This document shows positions 6,469-55,393 of a stretch of 64,000 nucleotides of DNA, piece by piece. Source of the stretch: Paracoccaceae bacterium. Its GTDB lineage: Bacteria; Pseudomonadota; Alphaproteobacteria; Rhodobacterales; Rhodobacteraceae. Position numbers and translations under genes: made by a program. Location: positions 1 through 64,000 of the forward strand of contig JAHDIS010000014.1 of the NCBI GenBank assembly GCA_020630695.1, written 5' to 3'. How positions within the stretch are numbered: the stretch's first letter is position 1; every line of letters begins with the position of its first letter. Under the pieces are notes generated by a model that worked only from the letters and a program-made list of their open reading frames with translations, had not been told where the DNA came from and searched no databases.

Positions 6469-7624
6469 CGACTGGAAAGCAGGCGGCTTTGCACTCTATG
6501 TGCACTGGCCTTTCTGCGAGTCCAAATGCCCCTATTGCGACTTTAACTCACATGTTTCCCAATTTGTGGATCAGCAGCGTTGGGCGCGTGCTTTGGTGTC
6601 AGAAATAGATCGGTATTCTGAGCTCACCAAAGGTCGGGTTTTGAGATCGATCTTTTTTGGCGGCGGTACCCCATCTTTGATGGCCGTGGAAACCGTTCAG
6701 TCCGTTCTGGAAGCATCCAAGAAGAACTGGCTTTGGGCGAACGATATCGAAATCACACTCGAGGCGAACCCTGGATCTGTCGAAACCGCAAAATTCCAGG
6801 GATTTTCGGAAGTTGGCGTGAACCGGGTTTCCCTCGGCATACAGGCTTTGAACGACACTGATCTAAAACGTCTTGGTCGTTTACATTCGGTAGCCGAGGC
6901 CAAAACTGCGTTTGATACCGCGCGCAAGTTCTTTGACAGGGTCAGCTTTGACCTAATCTATGCACGGCAGGACCAATCCTTGGCAGATTGGCGGAGTGAA
7001 TTGACCGAAGCGCTATCTATGGCAGGCGATCATCTGTCTTTGTATCAGCTAACAATCGAACCCGGCACCGCATTTTGGGATCGCGCCCAGCGCGGTGGTT
7101 TGAGGGGCCTGCCAGAAGATTCCTTGTCAGCGGATATGTATGATTTGACCCAGGAACTTTGTGATCAGGCTGGCTATTCGGCCTATGAAGTCTCTAATCA
7201 TGCACAAAATGGATCTGAATCTCGGCACAACTTGGTTTACTGGAACTACGGGGACTACATTGGTGTTGGGCCCGGCGCGCATGGTCGTGTCACAAAGAAC
7301 GGCCAGAAATATGCGACGGAGGCTATCTCTGCACCGGGTGCATGGATCAAAGCCGCAGAACTCGGAAACGCCGATGTTGTGAGTTCAGTGATCAACCCAC
7401 TAGATATGGCTGGTGAAGCCATCATGATGGGACTTCGCACTATTTACGGCCTAGATGTTGATCGAGTTCGCCAAATCCAGCCGGATGCTCTGCCTTCAGC
7501 AAAGCTGAGTGAGTTACAGGATCTCAAATTAATCGAACTGGACGGAGGCCGGATCAAGCCGACACGTCAAGGTACGCTGTTGCTGAACTCAGTGATTACT
7601 GAACTTCTGCCTGAACCTGTCTAG
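6458..7624 (+). CDS. hemW: Radical SAM haem chaperone HemW (formerly HemN-like)
   Basis: The radical SAM cluster motif CESKCPYCDFNSH (CX3CX2C) lies at about residues 20-32, followed by FFGGGTPSLM and NRVSLGIQALND. These match the HemW branch, which lacks coproporphyrinogen oxidase activity and inserts haem into target proteins. The most plausible start is TTG at 6458 ([20 protein letters not shown]), overlapping the rdgB stop; I see no ATG before the conserved region. 388 residues. True HemN function is less likely, given the family and the operon. Confidence 0.9.
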   Translation: MIADDWKAGGFALYVHWPFCESKCPYCDFNSHVSQFVDQQRWARALVSEIDRYSELTKGRVLRSIFFGGGTPSLMAVETVQSVLEASKKNWLWANDIEITLEANPGSVETAKFQGFSEVGVNRVSLGIQALNDTDLKRLGRLHSVAEAKTAFDTARKFFDRVSFDLIYARQDQSLADWRSELTEALSMAGDHLSLYQLTIEPGTAFWDRAQRGGLRGLPEDSLSADMYDLTQELCDQAGYSAYEVSNHAQNGSESRHNLVYWNYGDYIGVGPGAHGRVTKNGQKYATEAISAPGAWIKAAELGNADVVSSVINPLDMAGEAIMMGLRTIYGLDVDRVRQIQPDALPSAKLSELQDLKLIELDGGRIKPTRQGTLLLNSVITELLPEPV

Positions 7625-7628
7625 CCCG

Positions 7629-8531
7629 CTATTTAGCCGAACTCAGAACTCCACAAAGCAAATCTAAATCTTCCAGCGTGTCATAGTTGATCGAAATGCG
7701 CCCAGATTCCTGGCCCGCAGCGTGATCGATCGTGACTTTCATACCCAGAGCCGCGGAAAGATCGCCTTCCAATGCTTTGGTATCGGCATCTTTGGTTGAA
7801 GTTTGGCTTTTGGACGCCGGGTTTTTCTGTTTCCCACCGGGGGTGTCCCCTTTGGCCAGCTTTTCAGTCTCTCTTACGGACAAACCACGCTGGACAACCG
7901 CCTTGGCGAGGCCTTCAGGATCATCAGCGGTAACCATCGTTCTGGCATGGCCTGCAGAAAGCACGCCCTCTGAAACCATGTCCTGAACACTCGGCGGCAG
8001 ATTAAGCAAACGTAGCAAGTTCGCGATGTGACTGCGGCTCTTTCCAAGGGCTTCAGCCAATTTTTCCTGCGTGTGCCCAAACTTATCCATTAGCTGACGA
8101 TAACCGGCCGCTTCTTCGATTGCGTTCAGGTCAGCGCGCTGGATGTTCTCGATAATTGCGACTTCCAAAACCTCGGTATCATCAAAATCGCGTACGATAA
8201 CAGGCAGTTCATGAACTTGCGCGATTTGGGCAGCCCGCCAACGGCGTTCGCCTGCCACAATCTGGTATTGCCCCTCATTTTTAGGATCCGGGCGAACGAT
8301 TAAGGGCTGCAGCACGCCTTTTGCCCGTATCGAGTTGGACAGCTCCTCGAGCTGATCCTTGGAAAAGTGCCTCCGAGGCTGATCAGGGTTTGGCGCAATG
8401 TTCTCAATCGGGATCCGGCGATCAGGCTGTGCGCCAGCGGAATCACCTTCCGTCACGCGAGGTTCAACATCCGCCATAAGTGCAGACAAGCCCCGGCCCA
8501 AACCCCGTCTCTGGTCTTTACGATCTGCCAT
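7629..8531 (-). CDS. parB: Chromosome partition protein ParB
   Basis: The CTP-dependent DNA clamp loads at parS and spreads. The 300-residue protein shows the N-terminal GLGRGLSALMAD (ParA-stimulating region), the ParB/Srx CTPase box around IVAGERRWRAAQ, then ENIQRADLNAIEEAAGY and the helix-turn-helix TQEKLAEALGKSRSHIANLLRLL, plus a short C-terminal dimerisation domain. It lies 24 bases downstream of parA and about 1.4 and 3.3 kb from the two parS sites found here, as expected for a chromosomal parABS locus. Confidence 0.97.
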   Translation of the reverse strand: MADRKDQRRGLGRGLSALMADVEPRVTEGDSAGAQPDRRIPIENIAPNPDQPRRHFSKDQLEELSNSIRAKGVLQPLIVRPDPKNEGQYQIVAGERRWRAAQIAQVHELPVIVRDFDDTEVLEVAIIENIQRADLNAIEEAAGYRQLMDKFGHTQEKLAEALGKSRSHIANLLRLLNLPPSVQDMVSEGVLSAGHARTMVTADDPEGLAKAVVQRGLSVRETEKLAKGDTPGGKQKNPASKSQTSTKDADTKALEGDLSAALGMKVTIDHAAGQESGRISINYDTLEDLDLLCGVLSSAK

Positions 8532-8555
8532 CAGTTAAATCCCTTTTCGGTGCCG

Positions 8556-9365
8556 TCAGGCGGCATTTTTTCCGTTCTTTTCAACCAATTCCTTGGCCAA
8601 CGCGCGATACGCCAATGCACCCTTTGATGTAGAATCATAGGACAAAACCGGCAACGCATAGGAAGGTGCCTCGCTAACCCGAACATTTCTTGGGATTATT
8701 GTCGAAAAAACCAACTCTCCAAGATTGTCACGGGCATCCGCCTCAACCTGCTGCGAAAGGTTGTTGCGATTGTCATACATCGTCAGAACTACACCCTCGA
8801 TCCTCAGCTTTGGGTTTGCTGTTTGTCTGATCTCTCGGACCGTAAGCATAAGCTGTGAAAGCCCCTCAAGCGCAAAAAACTCGCTTTGCAGGGGGACCAG
8901 CACGGAATCAGCGGCGACCATGGCGTTCACTGTCAGCAGGTTCAACGAAGGTGGGCAGTCGATCAGGATATAATCGAACTGAAACCCGTCTATCTGCGGC
9001 TGCCGCAACGCGTCATGCAAAAGAAAACTACGCTTTTCGTTGGAGATCAGCTCCATATCCGCTGAGCTAAGATCAACCGTTGCCGGGATCAACGAAAGTC
9101 CATCCATCATTGTTGGCACGATAACCTCTTGCAGGTCCACGTCCTCCAGCAAGAGTTCATAAGTCGTAAATTCGCGATCTTCGGGCTCGATACCCAGCCC
9201 CGTCGAGGCATTTCCCTGAGGGTCAAGATCGACGATCAGCACCTCGGCCCCAGATTCGCTCAGCGCAGCACCAAGATTAATCGTGGTCGTGGTCTTGCCG
9301 ACACCGCCTTTTTGATTGGCTACAGCTATGATTTTCGGAGTTTTCGTTCGGAGAACGTCAAGCAT
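8556..9365 (-). CDS. parA: Chromosome partition ATPase ParA (Soj family)
   Basis: Deviant Walker A NQKGGVGKTTTTINLGA is near residue 18, Walker A' DLDPQGNAS follows, and the switch II segment DCPPSLNLLTVNA comes later. These define a ParA/Soj ATPase that forms the nucleoid gradient for origin segregation. 269 residues. The start overlaps the rsmG stop by eight bases and parB follows, giving the conserved order mnmE-mnmG-rsmG-parA-parB. Confidence 0.97.
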   Translation of the reverse strand: MLDVLRTKTPKIIAVANQKGGVGKTTTTINLGAALSESGAEVLIVDLDPQGNASTGLGIEPEDREFTTYELLLEDVDLQEVIVPTMMDGLSLIPATVDLSSADMELISNEKRSFLLHDALRQPQIDGFQFDYILIDCPPSLNLLTVNAMVAADSVLVPLQSEFFALEGLSQLMLTVREIRQTANPKLRIEGVVLTMYDNRNNLSQQVEADARDNLGELVFSTIIPRNVRVSEAPSYALPVLSYDSTSKGALAYRALAKELVEKNGKNAA

Positions 9366-9960
9366 TTGTTATGTTCCGGATTTTCATTACCACGGCATCT
9401 GCCTGGGTTTTACTTGTAGTGATTTCCCAATCGAAGCGCCACGTCTGTAACGCCTGGTCCAACTCTTTTTTCCAACTAGCCCCCTTGGGAAGCAACGCAA
9501 CGCCACCCTCGGCGATATGCGGGGCACAGTAACCCAAAAGATGATCCAACGGGGCTAAAGCACGCGCGCTTACCACTTCCGCGTTTTGTGGAGTTGCGGA
9601 TTCTATCCGCTCCGCCAGAACAGTGCCGACTGTGTCGGTTTCGCGGAGCACCGTACGAAGAAAAGTTGCTTTTCTCACATCGCTCTCAATCATTGTGACT
9701 GAGCTATTTGGGTAGAATTCTTGACTGAGGATTGCAACGACCAGCCCGGGAAATCCACCCCCCGACCCCAGATCAACCCAACCCGCGTAAGTGTCAGGCC
9801 GACAGTCAAAAACCTGTATCGAATCCTCGATATGCCGATCCCAAGCCTCATTGATCGTCGATTTTGCGACGAGATTGATTTTTGAGTTCCATTTTTTCAG
9901 GAGATTCAGGAAATGCCGGAGCTTTTCCTTTGTTTCACGTGAAACAACAGGGTGGCTCAT
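9358..9960 (-). CDS. rsmG: 16S rRNA (guanine-N7)-methyltransferase RsmG
   Basis: Methylates G527 of 16S rRNA. The SAM-binding motif [13 protein letters not shown] is near residue 66, preceded by [19 protein letters not shown], a family signature. 200 residues. It overlaps mnmG by ATGA. Codons 5-10 are written over a perfect parS palindrome, so the residues VSRET reflect the ParB-binding site as well as the enzyme. Confidence 0.95.
9931..9946. promoter_or_regulatory. parS site 1 (ParB-binding palindrome)
   Basis: TGTTTCACGTGAAACA is a perfect match to the consensus bacterial parS 16-mer and a perfect palindrome. It lies within codons 5-10 of rsmG, about 1.4 kb from parB. Confidence 0.97.
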
Positions 9961-11834
9961 GCCCGCTTCTTTCGCTCTGCCTGACGGATGAAGGCCAAGA
10001 TCAAAGTCAACGCGGCGGGAGTCATACCATCAACACGGCCAGCCTGCCCGATCGACTCCGGTCTAGACTTGATCAGCTTTGCCTTTAGTTCGTTGGAAAG
10101 CCCAGAGATCGATTCATAATCGAAATCGTTCGGGATCTGGATACCCTCATCCTTACGCAACATATCCACGTCGCGCTGCTGCCTTTGGATATAATTCGAA
10201 TAAAGCGCTTCTATGGAGAGCTGCCGGGCAATCATTGGTTCCAAGACCTTAAGCGATTGATCAAGCATACAAACGTGCTCAAAAGTAACGTCTTTGAACG
10301 ACAAGAGGTCAAACGCACTGCGCTTTGTACCATCGTGATTCACCGTCACACCAATCTTTTGAACTTCGCTAGGCGAGAAGGTTTTGGTGCACAGGGCTTT
10401 TTTACCTGATTCCAGCATTTCAGCCTTGTGTTCAAAGGCTTCACGACGTTCTTCGTTAACAATACCAAGATCGATCGCTTTAGGCGTTAAGCGTTGATCT
10501 GCGTTGTCAGCTCTCAGCGACAACCGGAACTCGGCTCTTGATGTGAACATTCTGTATGGCTCACTAACACCCCGTGTCGTGAGATCATCCAGCATCACAC
10601 CGATATAGCTTTCCATTCTGGAAAACGTGATCTCATCTTTACCCAGCGCAACAGCTGCAGCGTTAAGGCCGGCAACCAACCCCTGCGCGCCCGCCTCTTC
10701 ATAACCGGTTGTTCCGTTGATCTGACCGGCCAGAAAAAGACCCGCAACATCACGAACCGCCAAGGTCGACGAAAGCGCCCGGGGATCAACATAATCATAT
10801 TCGATCGCATAGCCTGGCTGCAAAATCTCAGCATTCTCCAAACCAAAAATCGAATGAACATAGGATTCTTGAACATCCGCCGGCAGTGAGGTCGATATTC
10901 CGTTGGGATAAACGGTATTCACTGACAGCCCTTCAGGCTCAAGAAAAACTTGATGGCTGGCTTTGTCAGAGAACCGAACAACTTTGTCTTCAATTGACGG
11001 GCAGTACCGCGGGCCAACACCCTCAATATGACCGCCATACATGGCAGAACGATCCAGATTCTTGCGAATTAGGTCGTGGGTTTGTTCATTCGTATGTGTG
11101 ATCCCACAAGAAACCTGCCTCGCAAATGGCTTATTGGAAAGAAACGAAAACAGAGTTGGATCTTCGTCCCCTGGCTGCTCTTCCAGTTTTTCCCAAGCGA
11201 TGGTTTTTCCATCAAGCCGCGGTGGAGTTCCAGTCTTCAAACGCCCCAAAGGCAGGGCAAACTGATCAATTCGCTCTGCAAGCTTCAACGACGGGTCATC
11301 TCCCATTCGGCCTCCGGGGTATGAAACATCCCCAATGTGGATGACGCCCCTTAGGAAAGTCCCGCTGGTTAAAACGACCGATCTGGCTTTGATCTCAGAT
11401 CCATCACGCAAAATGACGCCAGCAACATTTAGACCTGACATCAAAAAATCGACGGTCTCCCCCTCGATAAACTCAAGATTTTCGATCTTACCGATCGCTT
11501 CCTGCATCGCTGCTTGATAAAGCTGCCGGTCCGCCTGTGCTCTGGGGCCTTGTACCGCAGGGCCTTTGCGTCTGTTCAAAAGACGAAACTGGATTCCTGC
11601 CCGATCCGCGACACCAGCCATCAACCCGTCAAGCGCATCAATTTCCCGAACGAGATGACCTTTGCCCAAACCGCCAATGGCGGGATTGCATGACATCACT
11701 CCGATGTCCGCAAACTTGAGCGAAACCAAGGCTGTCTTGGCACCCATCCTCGCGGCAGCCGAAGCCGCTTCGGTACCTGCGTGCCCAGCACCAACAACCA
11801 CAACGTCGAAATCACTGTGTTTCACGTGAAACAA
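9957..11834 (-). CDS. mnmG: tRNA uridine-5-carboxymethylaminomethyl modification enzyme MnmG (GidA)
   Basis: With MnmE it installs the cmnm5 group on U34 of certain tRNAs. The FAD-binding [17 protein letters not shown] is near the N-terminus. [37 protein letters not shown] and [17 protein letters not shown] are family signatures. 625 residues. No ATG start is available before the conserved region: the open frame gives TTG at 11834, and GTG at 11825 has better spacing from a GAGG element. Both candidate starts fall inside the second parS site. mnmE lies three bases upstream. Confidence 0.96.
11818..11833. promoter_or_regulatory. parS site 2 (ParB-binding palindrome at the mnmG start)
   Basis: A second perfect TGTTTCACGTGAAACA palindrome encodes the first residues of MnmG (MFHVKH) and contains or abuts its possible start codons. 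It is 1.9 kb from the first parS and about 2.6 kb from the candidate oriC. Confidence 0.97.
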
Positions 11835-11837
11835 TCC

Positions 11838-13124
11838 TCATTTCCCAATGCAGAAGCTGGAGAAGATTTCATCCAGAACATGTTCTACATTAATGTGGCC
11901 CACCAAACTTTCCAAAGCACGGATACCAAAACGAACTTCTTCACTGACCAGTTCGTAAACGTCGGGACCGTCTACCAACATTCTGCGAGCCATATCCAGC
12001 TTTTCCTGACCTTGCTCTAAACAAACTCTATGGCGTTCACGATTGGCAAGCTCTGCACCAGAAACTTGATTTTCCAGCCGTGAGCCAATTTGCTCAAGCA
12101 GCCAAGAAATACCTGCACCTGTTTTCCCAGAAATCCCATCCGGGCCGGTCCCGCCATCTTCCTTGGATTTAACAACGATATCATCGCTACCAGGCTGCAT
12201 CGCAAGTTCTGAATCGGCATAAAGATGGATTCGGAGATCCGCGCCCTGCGCGCGGGCCAGCGCCCGTTCAACCCCGATCTTTTCAATTGTGTCGTCGGAT
12301 TCCCGTATTCCGGCCGTGTCCAGTAACGTGACAGGAAACCCAAGAATATCCATGCGTACTTCAATCACGTCCCGCGTCGTACCCGCGATTTCAGAAGTGA
12401 TCGCAGCCTCACGCCCCGCCAACTGGTTCAACAGTGTGGATTTGCCAACGTTGGGTTCCCCGACTATCGCAATTTCGAAACCGGTCCTTACCCGTTCAGC
12501 ACTATCCAAACCTCGCAACTGTAGAGAAATTTCGATCGAAACAAATTCAAGAAGCTCCGCTACTTCGTCGCTTACGTCCACCGGAACTTCTTCATCTGCA
12601 AAATCGATTACGGCCTCCAGTAGTGACACGGCCCGCACCAATTTGGATCGCCATACAGCGATCTTCTGAGACAGTTCCCCTGAAAGCAAAGCCAATGCCG
12701 ACTTACGCTGCGCTTCGGTTTCTGCCTCGATGAGATCCGCGAGCGCTTCGACTTGGGTCAAATCCATACGGCCGTTGGTCAAAGCCCGGCGTGTAAACTC
12801 GCCCGCTTCTGCTAGTCTTGTGTTTTCAAATTCAGACAACAGCCGCAGCAGTGATGACACCACAGCAACACTGCCATGGCAGTGAAACTCGACAATTGGC
12901 TCCCCGGTAAAGCTGGCACCCTCGCTGAAATAAAGCAAAACAACCTGGTCCAATACCACGCCATTTTTGTCTCTAAGCTCGCGCAATACTGCTTTTCTGG
13001 CCTCTGGAAGAGGACCACAAAGCGTCTCAGCAATAGCTGCTGCCCCTACCCCCGAGACACGAACAATCGACACGCCTGCTTTTCCAGGCGCCGTGGCCTG
13101 AGCAAAAATCGTATCCATGTTCAA
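11838..13124 (-). CDS. mnmE: tRNA modification GTPase MnmE (TrmE)
   Basis: Partner of MnmG. The N-terminal folate-binding domain begins MDTIFAQATAPGKAGVSIVRVSG. The Ras-like G domain has P-loop GEPNVGKSTLLNQL near residue 223, then AGTTRD and DTAGIRES. The protein ends in CIGK, the conserved C-terminal cysteine motif of MnmE. 428 residues. It sits between rho and mnmG on the minus strand. The usual third G motif (NKxD) looks degenerate here (VVKSKEDG), so check it by alignment. Confidence 0.95.
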   Translation of the reverse strand: MNMDTIFAQATAPGKAGVSIVRVSGVGAAAIAETLCGPLPEARKAVLRELRDKNGVVLDQVVLLYFSEGASFTGEPIVEFHCHGSVAVVSSLLRLLSEFENTRLAEAGEFTRRALTNGRMDLTQVEALADLIEAETEAQRKSALALLSGELSQKIAVWRSKLVRAVSLLEAVIDFADEEVPVDVSDEVAELLEFVSIEISLQLRGLDSAERVRTGFEIAIVGEPNVGKSTLLNQLAGREAAITSEIAGTTRDVIEVRMDILGFPVTLLDTAGIRESDDTIEKIGVERALARAQGADLRIHLYADSELAMQPGSDDIVVKSKEDGGTGPDGISGKTGAGISWLLEQIGSRLENQVSGAELANRERHRVCLEQGQEKLDMARRMLVDGPDVYELVSEEVRFGIRALESLVGHINVEHVLDEIFSSFCIGK

Positions 13125-13136
13125 CCTCGATTGAGA

Positions 13137-14408
13137 TTAGGTGTTCATTGAGTCGAAGAACTCAGAATTCGACTTGGTCTGCTTGAGCTTCGAAATCAGG
13201 AATTCGATGGCATCGGTCGTACCCATCGGGTTCAGGATACGGCGCAAGACAAACGTCTTCTGCAGATCGATCTTGTCCACCAGCAGATCCTCTTTCCGTG
13301 TTCCAGACTTAAGGATATCCAGCGCAGGGAAGACCCGCTTGTCCGCAACCTTGCGATCCAGAACGATTTCAGAGTTACCTGTGCCTTTGAATTCTTCAAA
13401 GATAACTTCGTCCATCCGGCTACCAGTATCGATCAGCGCAGTCGCAATAATCGTCAGCGAACCACCCTCTTCGATGTTCCGCGCCGCACCAAAGAAACGC
13501 TTGGGTCTCTGCAGCGCGTTCGCGTCCACACCACCTGTCAAAACTTTACCCGAAGACGGCACAACGGTGTTAAACGCTCTACCAAGTCTTGTGATCGAAT
13601 CGAGAAGAATCACAACATCTCGTTTGTGTTCCACGAGACGCTTGGCTTTCTCGATAACCATTTCAGACACCGCAACGTGGCGTGTTGCCGGCTCGTCAAA
13701 GGTAGAGGAAACCACTTCACCTTTAACCGAACGCTGCATGTCGGTCACTTCTTCTGGTCTTTCATCAATCAGCAGAACGATCAGGTAGCACTCAGGATGG
13801 TTCTTTTCGATTGAGGTAGCGATGTTTTGCAACAATACCGTCTTACCAGTCCGAGGCGGCGCCACGATGAGGCTACGCTGACCTTTACCAATCGGCGCTA
13901 CGAGATCGATAATCCGCGCAGACCGATCCTTGATCGTTGGATCCTCAATCTCCATCCGCAGACGTTCATCCGGATAAAGTGGTGTGAGGTTGTCAAACGC
14001 GATCTTATGGCGCGCCTTCTCAGGATCTTCAAAGTTGATCCGAGTCACACTGATCAACGCAAAATATCTCTCAGCTTCATCCGGTGCCTTAATCTCACCT
14101 TCGATGGTGTCCCCTGTTCTCAAGGAATATTTACGGATCATATCCGGAGACACGTAGATGTCGTCCGGGCCTGGAAGGTAGTTTGCTTCGGGTGAACGTA
14201 GAAAACCAAAACCGTCCTGAAGAACCTCCAAGACGCCGTCACCGAAGATATCCCAACCCTCATCCGCGCGTTCGCGCAGGATCTGGAACATCATTTCGCC
14301 TTTTCTCATCGTCGAGGCGTTTTCGATTTCCAGTTCTTCGGCCATGGCCAAGAGATCCTTGGGGCTCTGCGCCTTCAGGTCTGCTAGGTTCAGTCTTTCC
14401 TGGCTCAT
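13137..14408 (-). CDS. rho: Transcription termination factor Rho
   Basis: RNA-dependent helicase that ends transcription. The ATG at 14408 ([23 protein letters not shown]) gives 423 residues, normal for Rho. The open frame extends 32 codons further, but that leader is not Rho-like. Visible parts are the RNA-binding cold-shock domain ([15 protein letters not shown]), Walker [17 protein letters not shown] and Walker [18 protein letters not shown]. It borders the putative replication origin. A hairpin (CCTCC 14461-14465 / GGAGG 14472-14476) in its leader could serve autoregulation, an inference only. Confidence 0.97.
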
Positions 14409-14934
14409 ACGATATCCTTCAGGATCAAATATGCCCTGTATTTTCTTGTGTCGGGGAAACCCTCCAGAACAGGAGGTACAGCGTCGATAGAACCAAGACG
14501 GCAAAATGTCAATCAGACGCGGTTTTCACTGCTCTCTTCAAACCAAATATAAAAAAGAATTTAAGGTGGTAGTAGAACTTAGGCAGCGCACTCTTTGTGG
14601 ATTACTGACTTACCCAAGTTTCATCCACACCGCACTGATCTGTGGACATCTTACAGGATTGTTCCTGTACGCATCAGTAACCTTTCCTAAAACTCCGAGA
14701 TAAACAAAGCCAAAATTCTAGAACTCAACCAAAATTCAATTTTGTGCATAAGACTAGGGATCACCAGTGTTGAAGTTCGTTCATGCAAGGTGCCGGGTTA
14801 TCCCTTTCACAGTCTGCATGAACCACTGAAGATGACTGGAAAAGCGAGGAGTTATTCATGGGCTTGCAGATTGGTCTGATTATCCTCAAAACCATCAGAC
14901 CCTTTCCACAGAACTTGTCCACAAATCCATCCGC
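14409..14934. other. oriC: Candidate chromosomal replication origin (oriC)
   Basis: This 526-base gene-free interval lies between outward-reading rho and maf, near parAB and parS. Part is AT-rich (about 14,540-14,580 and 14,690-14,760). DnaA-box-like 9-mers compared with TTATCCACA: 14596-14604 (minus, TAATCCACA, one mismatch), 14621-14629 (TCATCCACA, one), 14880-14888 (TTATCCTCA, one), 14915-14923 (TTGTCCACA, one), 14641-14649 (minus, two) and 14902-14910 (CTTTCCACA, two). The neighbourhood maf-aroE-coaE-dnaQ on one side and rho-mnmE-mnmG-rsmG-parAB on the other is typical of alphaproteobacterial origins. No perfect DnaA box was seen, and I noticed no GANTC sites. GC skew was not computed. 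Confidence 0.7.
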
Positions 14935-15534
14935 ATGAATTTTGATCTTATCCTGGCTTCTGGCTCCGAAATCCGCGCTGATCTGCTGAGAAAAGCAGGT
15001 CTGAAGATCGCTGTCGAATCGCCTCGCGTCGATGAAGAGTCGATTAAAAACGCGCTTCTCGAAGAAGAAGCAAAACCAAGAGACATTGCCGACACTTTGG
15101 CTGAGGCAAAGGCGCGCAAAGTTTCGGCTAAGGTTCCGGGGGCATTGGTGCTTGGCTGTGATCAAGTTCTGGAGCATGAGTTCAAGCTTTTCAGCAAGCC
15201 CGAGACAATCGATGAAGCACGCGAACAACTTGTAACTTTGCGTGGTAAAACACACCGCCTACTGTCGGCCGCGGTTTTGTACGAAAACGGAGAACCAGTC
15301 TGGCGCCACATCTCCATGGCACGTCTGACCATGCGACCTTTCAGCGACGATTTCCTCGAAGCTTACCTCGAACGCAATTGGCCCTCTGTGCAAACCTCGG
15401 TTGGGGGCTATAAACTCGAAGAAGAAGGGGTACGCCTCTTTGCGCAAATCCAGGGTGATTATTTCACTATTCTTGGTTTGCCGCTGCTCGAACTGCTCAA
15501 CTATCTCGCGCTACGGGGAACGATCCAGGCATGA
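14935..15534 (+). CDS. Maf/YceF-like nucleotide pyrophosphatase
   Basis: The 199-residue protein opens with LILASGSEIRADLLRKAG, the Maf family motif (S/T-x-S-P-R-R replaced here by SGSEIR). It continues with a conserved VLGCDQVLEHE metal-binding segment and a central KTHRLLSAAV. Maf proteins hydrolyse modified or canonical nucleoside triphosphates, and some are linked to septum inhibition. It is the first gene on the plus side of the candidate origin and overlaps aroE by ATGA. The exact substrate subgroup cannot be assigned by eye. Confidence 0.88.
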   Translation: MNFDLILASGSEIRADLLRKAGLKIAVESPRVDEESIKNALLEEEAKPRDIADTLAEAKARKVSAKVPGALVLGCDQVLEHEFKLFSKPETIDEAREQLVTLRGKTHRLLSAAVLYENGEPVWRHISMARLTMRPFSDDFLEAYLERNWPSVQTSVGGYKLEEEGVRLFAQIQGDYFTILGLPLLELLNYLALRGTIQA

Positions 15535-36547: not shown

Positions 36548-38113
36548 GTGAGCAACGAAAAGACATATGACGAAACGGCCGAAGTTGAGGTCATTCGAGG
36601 CGCGCCTCGGGATGAAGTCAGCGTGGAAGGCGTTCCGGCAGATGGGCTTGGTTGCCACTCGGGAGCCGAAATGGAAAAGGCCGCGCGCATGGCGGGCAAT
36701 TCCGAGATGCTGGATCAATACGCCAAGGATTACCCTGTCGGCCCGCATGATCAACCTCAGAGCATGTGCCCCGCATTCGGGAGTCTGCGTGTTGGTCTGA
36801 GAATGAAACGGGTTGCCACCGTGCTTTCGGGCTCGGCCTGCTGTGTTTATGGCCTGACCTTCGTTTCCCATTTTTACGGCGCCCGTCGTTCTGTCGGCTA
36901 TGTGCCTTTCAATTCCGAAACATTGGTTACCGGCAAGCTGTTCGAGGACATTCGCGACAGTGTTCACGAAATGGCCGACCCGGATCGTTTTGATGCAATT
37001 GTGGTGACCAATCTTTGCGTTCCCACCGCGTCCGGGGTGCCGCTGAGATTGCTTCCGGACGAGATAAACGGCGTCCGCATCGTGGGCATTGATGTTCCGG
37101 GTTTCGGGGTGCCGACGCATGCCGAAGCAAAAGACATTCTGGCTGGCGCCATGCTCAACTATGCGCGTCAGGAAATCGAGGCTGGGCCTGTTGCTGCGCC
37201 GGAAGGCGGCAAGTCTGACCGTCCCACGGTTGCCTTGCTGGGCGAAATGTTTCCTGCCGATCCGATGATGATCGGCGCGATGCTGGCCCCAATGGGAATG
37301 GCCGCCGGGCCGGTTGTACCCTGCCGGGAGTGGCGCGAATTGTATGCGGCGTTGGACAGCTCTGTGGTTGCTGCTGTTCACCCTTTCTATACGGCTGCCG
37401 TGCGTGAGTTTCAGGCGGCCGGACGTCCGATCGTCGGCAGCGCCCCGGTTGGGCATGATGGTACTGCGGAATGGCTGCGGGCCATCGGAGAAGCACACGG
37501 TGTTCCGGCTGCGCAGATCGCGGCTGCGCAAAACGCCTTTTTGCCGGCTATTAAAGGTGCACTTGCCGGTGCACCAATAAAGGGAACGGTTACCCTGAGC
37601 GGGTACGAAGGCAGCGAGCTTTTGGTCGCGCGTCTGCTTGTCGAGAGTGGCGCGGATCTGCGGTACGTCGGCACGGCTTGCCCAAAGACACCTTGGTCCG
37701 ACCCGGATCGCGAATGGCTCGAAGCCAAAGGTATCAAGGTCAAATTCCGCGCATCGCTCGAGGACGATTGCGCAGCGATGGAAGCTGTCCAGCCGGATCT
37801 GGCCATTGGCACGACACCGGTTGTTCAGAAGGCCAAAGAGCTTGGCATTCCGGGTCTCTACTACACCAATCTGATATCCGCGCGTCCGCTGATGGGACCA
37901 GCTGGAGCCGGCAGCCTCGCTGAAGTGGTCAACGCCGCCATCGCTGGCAAAGCGCGCATGGATTACATGAAGGACTTCTTTGAAGGTGTCGGGAGTGGCG
38001 ACACCGCTGGCGTCTGGGAGGGCTCGCCCAATTTACGGCCCGACTTCCGAGCTCAGCACCAGAAGAAACTCGACAAACTGGCCCGTGCTGCCAAAGCGCA
38101 GGAGATGATCTGA
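36548..38113 (+). CDS. bchY: Chlorophyllide reductase subunit BchY
   Basis: NifD-like subunit of the enzyme that reduces the B ring of chlorophyllide. Cluster-ligand cysteines are in [13 protein letters not shown] (near residue 37), SMCPAFGSL and [13 protein letters not shown]. The 521-residue protein starts at GTG 36548 with a GAGAAGAAGAG purine run upstream. It overlaps bchZ by one base (TGATG). Confidence 0.96.
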
Positions 38114-39585
38114 TGCTGATTCAAGATCATGACAGAGCGGGTGGATACTGGGGCGCAGTCTATGCCTTTTGCGCCGTCAAAGGGCTGCAGGTCGTTATCG
38201 ATGGTCCAGTTGGATGCGAAAACCTGCCTGTCACATCGGTTCTGCACTACACGGACGCATTGCCCCCTCATGAGCTCCCTATCGTGGTGACTGGCCTCGG
38301 TGAGGAGGAGCTGGGTCGGGAGGGGACCGAGGGTGCCATGAAGCGCGCCTGGGGTGTGCTCGACCCGGCTCTACCAGCTGTTGTTGTGACCGGTTCAATC
38401 GCCGAAATGATCGGGGGTGGAGTCACGCCGCAAGGCACCAACATCCAGCGTTTCCTGCCCAGAACGATCGATGAAGATCAGTGGGAGAGCGCGGACCGCG
38501 CCATGACATGGATATTTACCGAATTCGGTATGACCAAAGGCCGGATGCCGCCTGAAAAGAAACGCGAAGAGGGCGCCAAGCCCAGGGTGAACATCCTTGG
38601 GCCCATGTACGGCACTTTCAATATGCCATCGGATTTGCATGAAATCCGGCGTCTCGTGGAGGGGCTCGGCGCTGAGGTCAACATGGTGATGCCGTTGGGC
38701 GCTCATCTGGCTGAAATGCGCAATCTGGTCAACGCCGACGCCAATATTTGCATGTACCGTGAATTCGGGCGTGGTTTGGCCGAAGTGTTGGGCAAGCCTT
38801 ATCTTCAGGCCCCGATCGGTGTTGAGAGCACAACCAAGTTCCTGCGCACGCTGGGCGAAATGCTGGATCTCGATCCTGAGCCGTTTATCGAACAGGAAAA
38901 GCATTCGACCCTGAAACCTGTCTGGGATCTGTGGCGTTCAGTGACACAGGATTTCTTTGCCACCGCGAGTTTTGGGATCGTGGCAAACGAAACCTACGCA
39001 CGCGGTGTACGAAACTACCTTGAAAACGATCTGGGTCTGCCGTGCTCCTTTGCCGTGGCACGCTGTGCCGGGTCAAAAACAAACAATGAAGAAGTTCGCA
39101 GTCTGGTGCACAACAAGCGTCCGCTTGTTCTGATGGGCTCGATCAACGAGAAAATGTATCTGGCCGAAACCAAGGCTGGACATGGGCCGCAACCGGTCTT
39201 TATGCCTGCCAGTTTCCCGGGCGCCGCGATCCGGCGGCATACCGGAACACCCTTTATGGGATACGCAGGCGCAACTTACATTCTGCAAGAAGTCTGCAAC
39301 GGGCTGTTCGATGCCCTGTTCCATATCCTGCCTTTGGCAACCGATATGGATCAGACCGATGCAACACTGACTCCGCTGCGGCGCGACTTCCCCTGGGATG
39401 CCGACGCTCAGACGGAACTGGATCGAATTGTTTCGGAGCATCCGGTTCTTACCCGAATTTCCGCAGCAAAGAATCTGCGCGACGCCGCTGAGGCCGAAGC
39501 GCTGAAACAGGGGGCTGAACGTGTCGTTCTTGAAACGGTGCAGGCCCTCGCTCCACGCGTTCAACAAAAGGAGGTCGGGCCATGA
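38113..39585 (+). CDS. bchZ: Chlorophyllide reductase subunit BchZ
   Basis: NifK-like partner of Bch[21 protein letters not shown] holds the cluster cysteine near residue 35, followed by [15 protein letters not shown] and, later, a C-terminal extension of about 60 residues ([33 protein letters not shown]) resembling the protochlorophyllide-reductase C-terminal domain. 490 residues. Coupled to pufQ by ATGA. Confidence 0.96.
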
Positions 39586-39806
39586 CCGATTTCACTTCGA
39601 GCGAACCGCGCCACAAAGGGCATACCGCCAGACGTGGAACGGAATTTCTTTTCTACTTCAGTCTCATCTTCGTGTTGGCGATCCCATTCGCCCTCGTTGG
39701 GTGGGTGCTGGAGGTGTTCCAAAAGCAGACGCTTATGCTGCACGGCCCGTTGGCCCGTGCCTGGGCCGAAGCTGACCGGATCACGCCCCTGATCTTCTCT
39801 GCGTGA
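39582..39806 (+). CDS. pufQ: PufQ, bacteriochlorophyll biosynthesis/assembly regulator
   Basis: The 74-residue protein has one membrane helix ([22 protein letters not shown], residues 22-43) and a short C-terminal tail, as in PufQ. PufQ affects flux into bacteriochlorophyll, possibly as a pigment carrier, and lies just before pufB in Rhodobacter-like operons. It starts in the bchZ stop (ATGA). Confidence 0.9.
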
Positions 39807-39814
39807 TCCCGAAA

Positions 39815-39928
39815 GCCGCGCGAGGGGCGCGGCGTGATCATGTGGGGAGCAAGAGCTGACCGTTTCCGAAAGGGACGGACAGATGCCTGTGGATTCTCCA
39901 TGGGAAACCCGGCCGCAGGGTGTGCGGC
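39815..39928 (+). promoter_or_regulatory. pufQ-pufB intercistronic hairpins
   Basis: Two perfect 6-bp GC stems lie in the 151-base leader of pufB: GCCGCG (39815-39820)/CGCGGC (39828-39833) and GCCGCA (39912-39917)/TGCGGC (39923-39928). A third weaker stem with a GAAA loop is near 39868-39886. Such structures 5' of pufB shield the abundant light-harvesting mRNA after cleavage from pufQ; this role is inferred from Rhodobacter. Confidence 0.6.
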
Positions 39929-39957
39929 GTCAGTCCTAACATTCCGGAGGAAAGTTC

Positions 39958-40107
39958 ATGGCTGATAATTCCGACCTGTCCTTCACAGGTCTCACCGACG
40001 AGCAGGCGCAGGAACTGCATTCCGTCTACATGAGCGGCCTTTGGCTGTTCTCGGCGGTTGCGGTGGTCGCACACCTCGCGACCTTCATCTGGCGTCCGTG
40101 GTTCTGA
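39958..40107 (+). CDS. pufB: Light-harvesting complex 1 beta subunit PufB
   Basis: The 49-residue antenna polypeptide starts [20 protein letters not shown]. Its single helix contains the bacteriochlorophyll-ligand histidine H39 in VVAHLATF, and the family C-terminus is IWRPWF. A strong ribosome-binding site GGAGGAAAG precedes ATG 39958. Fourteen bases separate it from pufA. Confidence 0.97.
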
Positions 40108-40121
40108 GGAAGGCATAGCAA

Positions 40122-40277
40122 ATGGCAAAGTTCTATAAGATCTGGCTCGTTTTCGATCCCCGCCGCGTGTTCGTGGCGCAGGGCGTCTTCCTGTTTCTGC
40201 TGGCTGCGATGATCCACATGGTGGTGCTGTCCAACGGCATCAACTGGTTCGACACCGCAGCAGCGGCAGGCATGTAA
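40122..40277 (+). CDS. pufA: Light-harvesting complex 1 alpha subunit PufA
   Basis: The 51-residue polypeptide begins [20 protein letters not shown], the LH1 alpha signature. Its single helix has ligand histidine H32 in AAMIHMVVL, followed by NGINWFD with the tryptophan that hydrogen-bonds the pigment. It pairs with PufB to form the ring around the reaction centre. Confidence 0.97.
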
Positions 40278-40329
40278 ACACGCCGGCCATCTAGGCCCAG
40301 CGTGGGACATGAGAGCCCAACCAAAAGAA

Positions 40330-40365
40330 GCCGGCGGGCGGGGCGGACCCCGCGTCGCCCGCGGC
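40330..40365 (+). promoter_or_regulatory. pufA-pufL intercistronic hairpin
   Basis: GCCG-G-CGGGCG (40330-40340) pairs with CGCCCG-CGGC (40356-40365), a 10-bp stem with one bulged G and a GC-rich loop. It sits in the 155-base gap between pufA and pufL. In Rhodobacter the equivalent structure protects the pufBA mRNA 3' end and so sets the excess of LH1 over reaction centre. Confidence 0.8.
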
Positions 40366-40432
40366 AAGCAAATGATAACCATGACGGCCCCCTCGAACTC
40401 GAGGTCGCGCCGCCAAACGCGGAGAATTGAAG

Positions 40433-41272
40433 ATGGCGCTGCTCAGCTTCGAGAAAAAGTATCGCGTCCGCGGAGGGACGCTGATCGGCGGCGATCTGTT
40501 CGACTTTTGGGTAGGCCCTTTTTACGTGGGCTTCTTCGGGGTCACGACCGCCTTTTTTGCCATGCTCGGTACGATCCTCATCCTTTGGGGCGCCGCGCAT
40601 CAAGGCACATTCAACCCTTGGCTCATCAACATTGCGCCACCTGACCTCAGCTACGGTCTTGGTATGGCGCCGCTCATGGAGGGCGGCCTTTGGCAGATCA
40701 TCACGATTTGCGCGACGGCAGCTTTCGTCAGCTGGGCGCTTCGAGAGGTCGAGATTTGTCGTAAATTGGGTATGGGCTATCACGTGCCCTTTGCTTTCAG
40801 TTTTGCGATCCTGGCGTATGTGACACTGGTCATCTTCCGTCCTTTGCTGATGGGTGCCTGGGGGCACGGATTTCCCTACGGGATTTTCAGCCACCTCGAC
40901 TGGGTCAGCAACACGGGCTACGCGTACCTGCATTTCCACTACAATCCGGCTCACATGCTGGCGGTGACCTTGTTCTTCACCACCACGCTGGCGCTGGCGC
41001 TGCACGGCGGCTTGATCCTGTCGGCGGCCAACCCTGAAAAGGGCGAGGAAATGCGCACCCCCGATCACGAAGACACGTTCTTTCGCGATTTCATTGGCTA
41101 TTCGGTCGGCACACTCGGCATTCACCGGGTCGGATTCCTGCTGGCCATCAATGCCGTTTTCTTCAGCGCTGTCTGTATCATCATCTCCGGGCCCGTTTGG
41201 ACCAAAGGCTGGCCGGAATGGTGGAACTGGTGGCTTGAGCTCCCCATCTGGGGCTCCAACGTGGGGCTATGA
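40433..41272 (+). CDS. pufL: Photosynthetic reaction centre L subunit
   Basis: The 279-residue five-helix protein begins [36 protein letters not shown]. Ligand histidines for the special pair and iron fall in [19 protein letters not shown] and in [17 protein letters not shown] at 40433 follows GGAGAATTGAAG; a TTG two codons upstream is in frame but less likely. Confidence 0.98.
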
Positions 41273-41275
41273 CCA

Positions 41276-42265
41276 ATGATATATCCTGAGTATCAAAACA
41301 TCTTCACGCAGGTGCAGGTTCAGGGGCCCCCGGAAATGGGCACCGAGACCGAAGCTGCAGCAACGGAACGCGGCACCAGTGCTTCGTTCTCGACCCTGGT
41401 GGGTTGGCTTGGAAATGCACAGTTGGGCCCGGTTTATCTTGGCTGGACGGGCATGGTGTCGGTCGCTGCGGGTTTGCTTGCATTCAACATCATTGGCATC
41501 AACATGCTGGCGCAGGTGGACTGGTCCATTCCGGAATTCATCCGCCAACTGTTCTGGTTGGCGCTTGAGCCGCCAAGCCCAGAATATGGCCTGAGCTTTC
41601 CGCCTTTGAACGATGGTGGTTGGTATATCATTGCCAGCTTCTTCCTTCTGGTTTCGGTGATGAGTTGGTGGGCAAGGACCTATCTCTTGGCCATGGAACA
41701 CAAGATGGGCAAACACGTCTTCTGGGCGTTTGGCGCTGCGATCTGGTTGTTCCTTGTGCTGGGTCTCTTCCGCCCGATCCTGATGGGATCGTGGTCAGAA
41801 GCGGTTCCCTACGGGATCTTCCCTCACCTTGATTGGACCACGGCGTTCTCAATCCGCTACGGCAATCTTTACTATAACCCCTTCCACGCTCTCTCGATCG
41901 TCTTCCTCTATGGCTCCGTTCTTCTGTTCGCCATGCATGGCGCGACGATCCTTGCGGTGACGCGTTATGGTGGCGACCGCGAATTGGAACAGATCGTCGA
42001 CCGCGGCACAGCCTCGGAACGCGCGGCTTTGTTCTGGCGCTGGACCATGGGCTTCAACGCCACGATGGAAGGCATTCACCGCTGGGCATGGTGGTTTGCG
42101 GTACTGACCCCGATTACGGGCGGCATCGGCATTCTTCTGACCGGCACGGTTGTGGACAACTGGTTCATCTGGGCTCAGGAGCATCACTTCGCTCCGATGT
42201 ATGACGGCAGCTACGGCTACGAAGCATACGGCTCTTATGACGCCTTCATCGGCAAGGAGAACTGA
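41276..42265 (+). CDS. pufM: Photosynthetic reaction centre M subunit
   Basis: The 329-residue partner of PufL starts [20 protein letters not shown] and shows the five helices with [17 protein letters not shown] and [18 protein letters not shown], which hold pigment and iron ligands. It starts three bases after pufL, as usual. No pufX follows; a cytochrome subunit gene does. Confidence 0.98.
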
Positions 42266-51998: not shown

Positions 51999-52016
51999 TG
52001 TAAGTTTTAATTGACA
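51999..52016. promoter_or_regulatory. PpsR/CrtJ site and promoter element of the bchF operon
   Basis: TGTAAGTTTTAATTGACA fits TGT-N12-ACA. Its right half is TTGACA (52011-52016), followed 17 bases later by ATATCC (52034-52039), a plausible sigma-70 promoter for bchF. A TGTCAA half-site lies 15 bases before it, at 51984-51989. Confidence 0.82.
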
Positions 52017-52055
52017 CTTTTAGCAGCGCGACGATATCCTCGTTTTAAGGAAGCA

Positions 52056-55393
<3,338 letters not shown>

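Follow-up and report, generated by a model that had tools for sequence, protein, structure and literature searches.

The rho–maf intergenic region as the very likely chromosomal replication origin of a Rhodobacteraceae bacterium

The rho–maf gap and its neighbourhood

The window, a 64-kb stretch of a 65.7-kb contig (C6), contains an intergenic region of 526 bp (positions 14409–14934, GC 0.44) within which the putative oriC lies. This gap is bordered on the left by the gene of transcription termination factor rho (13137–14408, minus strand; TIGR00767, 689 bits) and on the right by a gene for a Maf-like nucleotide pyrophosphatase (14935–15534, plus strand; NF002690 and TIGR00172, each below its curated cut-off). 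The left part of the gap (14409–14537) probably represents the rho leader side and, judging from the gap lengths and hemJ positions of relatives, corresponds to the place that hemJ occupies in most of those measured. Farther out lie mnmE, mnmG, rsmG, parA and parB on the left, and aroE, coaE, dnaQ and secB on the right. The Maf proteins closest to that of the window (57–70% identity) come from named Rhodobacteraceae loci, from which we infer that the host belongs to this family.

The partitioning genes are parB (7629–8531, minus strand; TIGR00180, above cut-off) and a gene for a parA-type ATPase (8556–9365, minus strand), whose best models fall below their cut-offs and whose assignment also draws on its place beside parB. 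Two perfect parS sites, both with the sequence TGTTTCACGTGAAACA, are located at 9931–9946 and 11818–11833, that is 2.6–4.5 kb left of the gap, and two perfect parS sites were likewise found in all seven relatives inspected. Both the divergent flanking genes and the nearby parABS system (parAB at 7629–9365) described in the first-pass annotation were thus recovered. A second hemW-parB-parA-rsmG-mnmG set, named by similarity to the genes of the window and accompanied by three perfect parS sites, occurs on the 5.1-kb contig C74 (L125:1–5119), three aligned pieces of which are 66–68% identical to window positions 6749–11873; this contig probably derives from a contaminating relative (assembly contamination 1.87%).

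Another candidate for a gene-free gap of more than 300 bases in the window (39586–40426) separates a chlorophyllide-reductase-like gene from a reaction-centre gene, and may contain small puf genes. Photosynthesis genes (chlorophyllide-reductase-like, two reaction-centre subunits and bchF-like) occupy positions 38113–42265 and 52011–52577, 23–38 kb from the rho–maf gap.

DnaA boxes and a core conserved among relatives

Compared with the reference DnaA box pattern TTATCCACA, the gap contains no perfect box, five boxes with one mismatch and seven with at most two. The one-mismatch boxes are TAATCCACA (14596–14604, minus strand) and TCATCCACA (14621–14629, plus strand), which form the left and right halves of a conserved divergent pair spaced 25 bp start to start, followed by TTATGCACA (14743–14751, minus strand), TTATCCTCA (14880–14888, plus strand) and TTGTCCACA (14915–14923, plus strand). 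Two weaker boxes, each with two mismatches, are ATGTCCACA (14641–14649, minus strand) and CTTTCCACA (14902–14910, plus strand). Dinucleotide shuffles of the gap yielded on average 0.16 one-mismatch boxes, with none of 1000 shuffles reaching the observed five, and 1.9 boxes with at most two mismatches, with three of 1000 reaching the observed seven. The gap is the densest 526-bp stretch for such boxes in the window, and in 109.6 kb sampled elsewhere in this genome the maximum is three one-mismatch boxes per 526 bp.

The 25-mer of lowest GC content in the window (3 of 25 positions G or C) begins at 14540, inside the gap. It opens a tract that is A-rich on the plus strand (14540–14566) and that, given its low GC and its recurrence at the same place in relatives, is presumed to be the DNA unwinding element. 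The tract overlaps a conserved core (14546–14629, plus strand; match to profile R1, described below), which comprises the A-rich sequence, a trinucleotide step and the divergent box pair. Strict consensus scans of the gap retrieved no GANTC, no TTAA-N7-TTAA (CtrA type) and no IHF site. Perfect DnaA boxes are absent from the entire 65.7-kb contig and number 22 in the whole genome, against 12 occurrences of TTATCCACA read backwards. The first-pass annotation had listed at least six weak boxes with one or two mismatches, AT-rich patches, and the absence of a perfect DnaA box and of GANTC, and our counts agree with it on all of these points. A RAMA-domain protein is encoded on contig C52 (17826–18125), and among the control genomes this domain matches only Caulobacter; CcrM may therefore be present in the genome although the gap is devoid of GANTC.

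A search for Maf in named genomes provided 38 loci, among which a region of approximately 360–420 bp in length, upstream of maf, can be aligned across relatives and shows the A-rich tract, trinucleotide steps and divergent DnaA-box pair. Box statistics were obtained from 56 regions of 440 bp, including that of the window and leaving out L021, which was mis-cut (4855 instead of 440 bases). These regions contain a mean of 2.73 one-mismatch boxes, compared with 0.12 by resampling, and three of them have none. The divergent pair was found in 48 of the 56 regions, compared with 1.4 by resampling; of the 31 regions outside the training set of the profile, some of them closely related to training members, 26 have it. 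Of the 56 regions, 20 contain a perfect box and 36 do not, and GANTC is absent from 14; its overall frequency is at chance level (1.67 versus 1.85 expected; 57 regions, L021 included). The window stands at the upper end for box number, with five one-mismatch boxes, and is ordinary for box quality, while the absence of a perfect box or of GANTC is common in the family and not unusual.

The sequence-only profile R1 was built from 24 relatives with the window left out. In the 3.84-Mb genome of the host, its sole match at E ≤ 1, obtained with a fast first pass in which 42 of 199 candidates were scored, is C6:14546–14629, inside the gap. With a score of 15.9 bits (E 0.03 genome-wide and 0.0005 for the window alone), this match is weak and sits between the two marks applied to the family, in which 76 of 100 genomes (the host included) matched at E ≤ 0.001 and 91 of 100 at E ≤ 1, a level at which each genome should yield roughly one match by chance. 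The genomes with a match include at least six that either belong to the training set or carry the same sequence (G003, G009, G018, G034, G110 and G123). Among the 30 best loci, maf adjoins the match in all 30 and rho in 29, the remaining locus being cut by the contig start. Two genomes outside the training set, G013 and G035, have their matches 297 and 270 bp upstream of maf, respectively, and in G117 the match is located between rho and maf. A DNA-level search with the gap against 60 relatives returned no match.

The core resembles the DnaA-box/DnaA-trio basal unwinding system (PMC8287927) in that a box adjoins an A-rich tract showing trinucleotide-like steps. The trio rule given there calls for a DnaA box with at least three NAN trinucleotides no farther than 16 bp away, GAT being the commonest. 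The two differ in that no such arrangement accompanies the window's conserved boxes, and per box it is no commoner in relatives than expected by chance. The window has a single run of three NAN trinucleotides, which contains no GAT and lies away from the conserved pair. In relatives, 9 of 348 boxes have a GAT-containing run, compared with 15.1 when flanks were resampled, and a looser rule was satisfied at 18 of 108 boxes, against 20.5 expected, and at neither of the two window boxes tested (L021 included in both counts). Counted per region, a run with GAT is present in 7 of 57 regions compared with 2.6 in resampled regions, which have fewer boxes too. The reading of the GATGATG/GTAG steps as DnaA-trios was rejected, two versions of the published pattern being at or below chance per box. 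Trinucleotide runs as such are present in 40 of 57 regions by plain motif count (L021 included); the steps are real, yet do not fit the published trio rule. A more far-reaching proposal is that a ~90-bp module comprising the A-rich tract, the GATGATG/GTAGGG-like step and the divergent weak-box pair defines the Rhodobacteraceae origin, carries an opening code other than the canonical trio and is the only part under selection, all border genes being losable; we regard this as speculative and rather unlikely.

Gene order around the gap and its border genes

The first-pass annotation had correctly observed that neither hemE nor the DUF299 gene stands between the gap and maf, and had concluded that the flank was rearranged. 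Located in the rest of the genome, as had been proposed there, hemE was found on contig C59, beside an open reading frame that we take to be hemC-like, while the DUF299 family had no match in the host assembly (98.5% complete). The only UPF0093 (HemJ-type) protein of the genome is encoded at C110:64804–65214 (L083) and shares 23% identity with the HemJ protein linked to oriC in L002; this organism may have replaced its protoporphyrinogen oxidase step.

In 22 Rhodobacteraceae loci carrying both genes, the rho–maf interval measures either 538–552 bp or, with a HemJ-type (UPF0093) gene inside, 962–1014 bp; the family of this gene was confirmed on L034. Across the 26 family loci measured, 20 have the order rho-hemJ-gap-maf and six lack hemJ, like the window. 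DUF299 is kept in six of 100 family genomes: G004 and G078 show the order hemJ-hemE-gap-DUF299-maf, which rho adjoins in G078, and G001, G015, G081 and G098 show rho-hemJ-gap-DUF299-maf. Profile R1 matches the gap beside DUF299 in the latter four genomes and weakly in G078, and has no match in G004. Of nine loci from Alphaproteobacteria outside the family, three (L028, L036 and L038) have an R1 match between hemE and DUF299 and six have none, among them Caulobacter sp. L031, where rho, hemJ, hemE, DUF299, maf and aroE stand in line.

The observed arrangements form a series, from rho-hemJ-hemE-gap-DUF299-maf through rho-hemJ-gap-DUF299-maf and rho-hemJ-gap-maf to rho-gap-maf, the last being that of the window. 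The best reading of these gene orders is that hemE, DUF299 and hemJ would have been lost or have departed, while oriC kept its place, with the rho side to its left and the maf side to its right; this succession is deduced from the observed orders and not from a tree. The odd flank of the gap is accordingly attributed to loss of border genes, and the orders found in relatives speak for loss or departure instead of the rearrangement initially suggested.

The origin of Caulobacter and Rickettsia is described in PMC1914354 as lying between hemE and COG1806, i.e. DUF299. By gene order, the Caulobacter crescentus Cori and the Rickettsia hemE-COG1806 origin correspond to the same locus as the gap. 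The homology is one of position: the flank no longer includes hemE, DUF299 or hemJ, and the gap differs from the Caulobacter-type origin in lacking TTAA-N7-TTAA (CtrA type), strict IHF and GANTC sites, just as R1 remains unmatched in L031.

Assignment of the origin and competing readings

On the contig itself, only 14.4 kb extend to the left of the gap. Third-position skew in this short left arm is +0.121 for outward genes and +0.025 for inward genes, and in the right arm it is approximately zero in outward and inward genes alike; the cumulative skew minimum in the window falls near 26 kb, compared with 14–15 kb for the gap. The GC-skew check put forward in the first-pass annotation was made on five relatives, with 20 stretches of 20 kb per genome and points denser near the site in four of the five genomes. 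At this coarse sampling, the best trial origin lies within 12–99 kb of the site in four of them (99 kb in G003, 12 kb in G013, 18 kb in G079 and 62 kb in G117), with 0 to 5% of 200 trial origins equalling or beating the site, and 323 kb off in G034, where 14.5% do so. With evenly spread points only, trial origins as good as the site amount to 8% (G013), 7.5% (G079), 9% (G117) and 25% (G034). Finer sampling revealed a change from minus to plus skew in 20-kb stretches around the site in both G003 and G013, and the skew of G003 is slightly negative again at 0–380 kb. On contig 1 of G034, the sign of the skew changes many times among the sampled stretches, as after several inversions.

Because of the box cluster, the conserved profile, the adjacent parS sites and the GC skew of relatives, we consider that the gap is almost certainly an ordinary chromosomal oriC of its class in its ancestral place, the same locus as the hemE/COG1806 origin with the border genes gone. 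These four lines of evidence support the chromosomal oriC between rho and maf claimed in the first-pass annotation.

In bacterial origins, DnaA binds its boxes, oligomerises and opens an AT-rich tract. The DnaA protein of this genome, encoded on contig C5, matches the Pfam N-terminal, ATPase and DNA-binding domains. By analogy with this known mechanism, it would bind the cluster of sub-consensus boxes, with the divergent pair 14596/14621 as a conserved anchor within it, and would oligomerise towards the adjacent A-rich tract (~14540–14566), opening it; helicases would then be loaded for two forks, the origin would fire, and ParB on the two parS sites would segregate the new origins.

An assignment of this kind places the likely origin of the genome at the rho–maf gap and suggests a simple rule for the family, in which the origin is sought between rho or hemJ on one side and maf or DUF299 on the other, usable in drafts without GC skew. 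It also indicates that border genes used for locating alphaproteobacterial origins can vanish while the origin stays, and the conserved core enables a test of DnaA-driven opening in a group in which counts under the published trio rule do not rise above chance. Origins of Rhodobacteraceae have been predicted for 101 strains by Ori-Finder from skew, DnaA boxes and nearness to parAB (PMC6699656); the available part of that paper names neither the border genes nor a conserved module, whereas we report the rho/maf borders together with a profile. In open-access literature, supplements aside, we found no description of rho/maf borders or of hemE/DUF299/hemJ loss at the Rhodobacteraceae origin, and the gene-loss series may be a part that specialists have not seen written down.

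Two other readings were weighed. The gap could be only a divergent promoter for rho and maf, with DnaA boxes that regulate those genes and an origin elsewhere; the two genes do diverge and need promoters there, and boxes also lie near the start of maf. Yet the box-and-AT module persists with either DUF299 or maf on its right and with hemE, hemJ or rho on its left, parS adjoins the gap, and the skew of four of five relatives fits a nearby origin, which leaves the promoter explanation highly improbable. Slightly less probable still is that the chromosome fires mainly elsewhere, from the dnaA region (C5) or from a plasmid-type Rep3/parA module (C38): of the 22 perfect boxes in the genome, the two in the latter module, located between parA-type and Rep3 initiator genes, are the only ones within 300 bp of one another, yet C38 holds at most three and the C5 stretches one one-mismatch box per 526 bp against five in the gap (173.6 kb of 3.84 Mb scanned, window included), and neither C38 nor C5 matches R1.

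The C38 module (L126:6195–9028) consists of divergent parA-type and Rep3 initiator genes, whose intervening region carries two perfect DnaA boxes at a distance of 219 bp, and is a plasmid-type origin; it adjoins biotin/lipoate-ligase, DUF6505 and Mrp-like genes.
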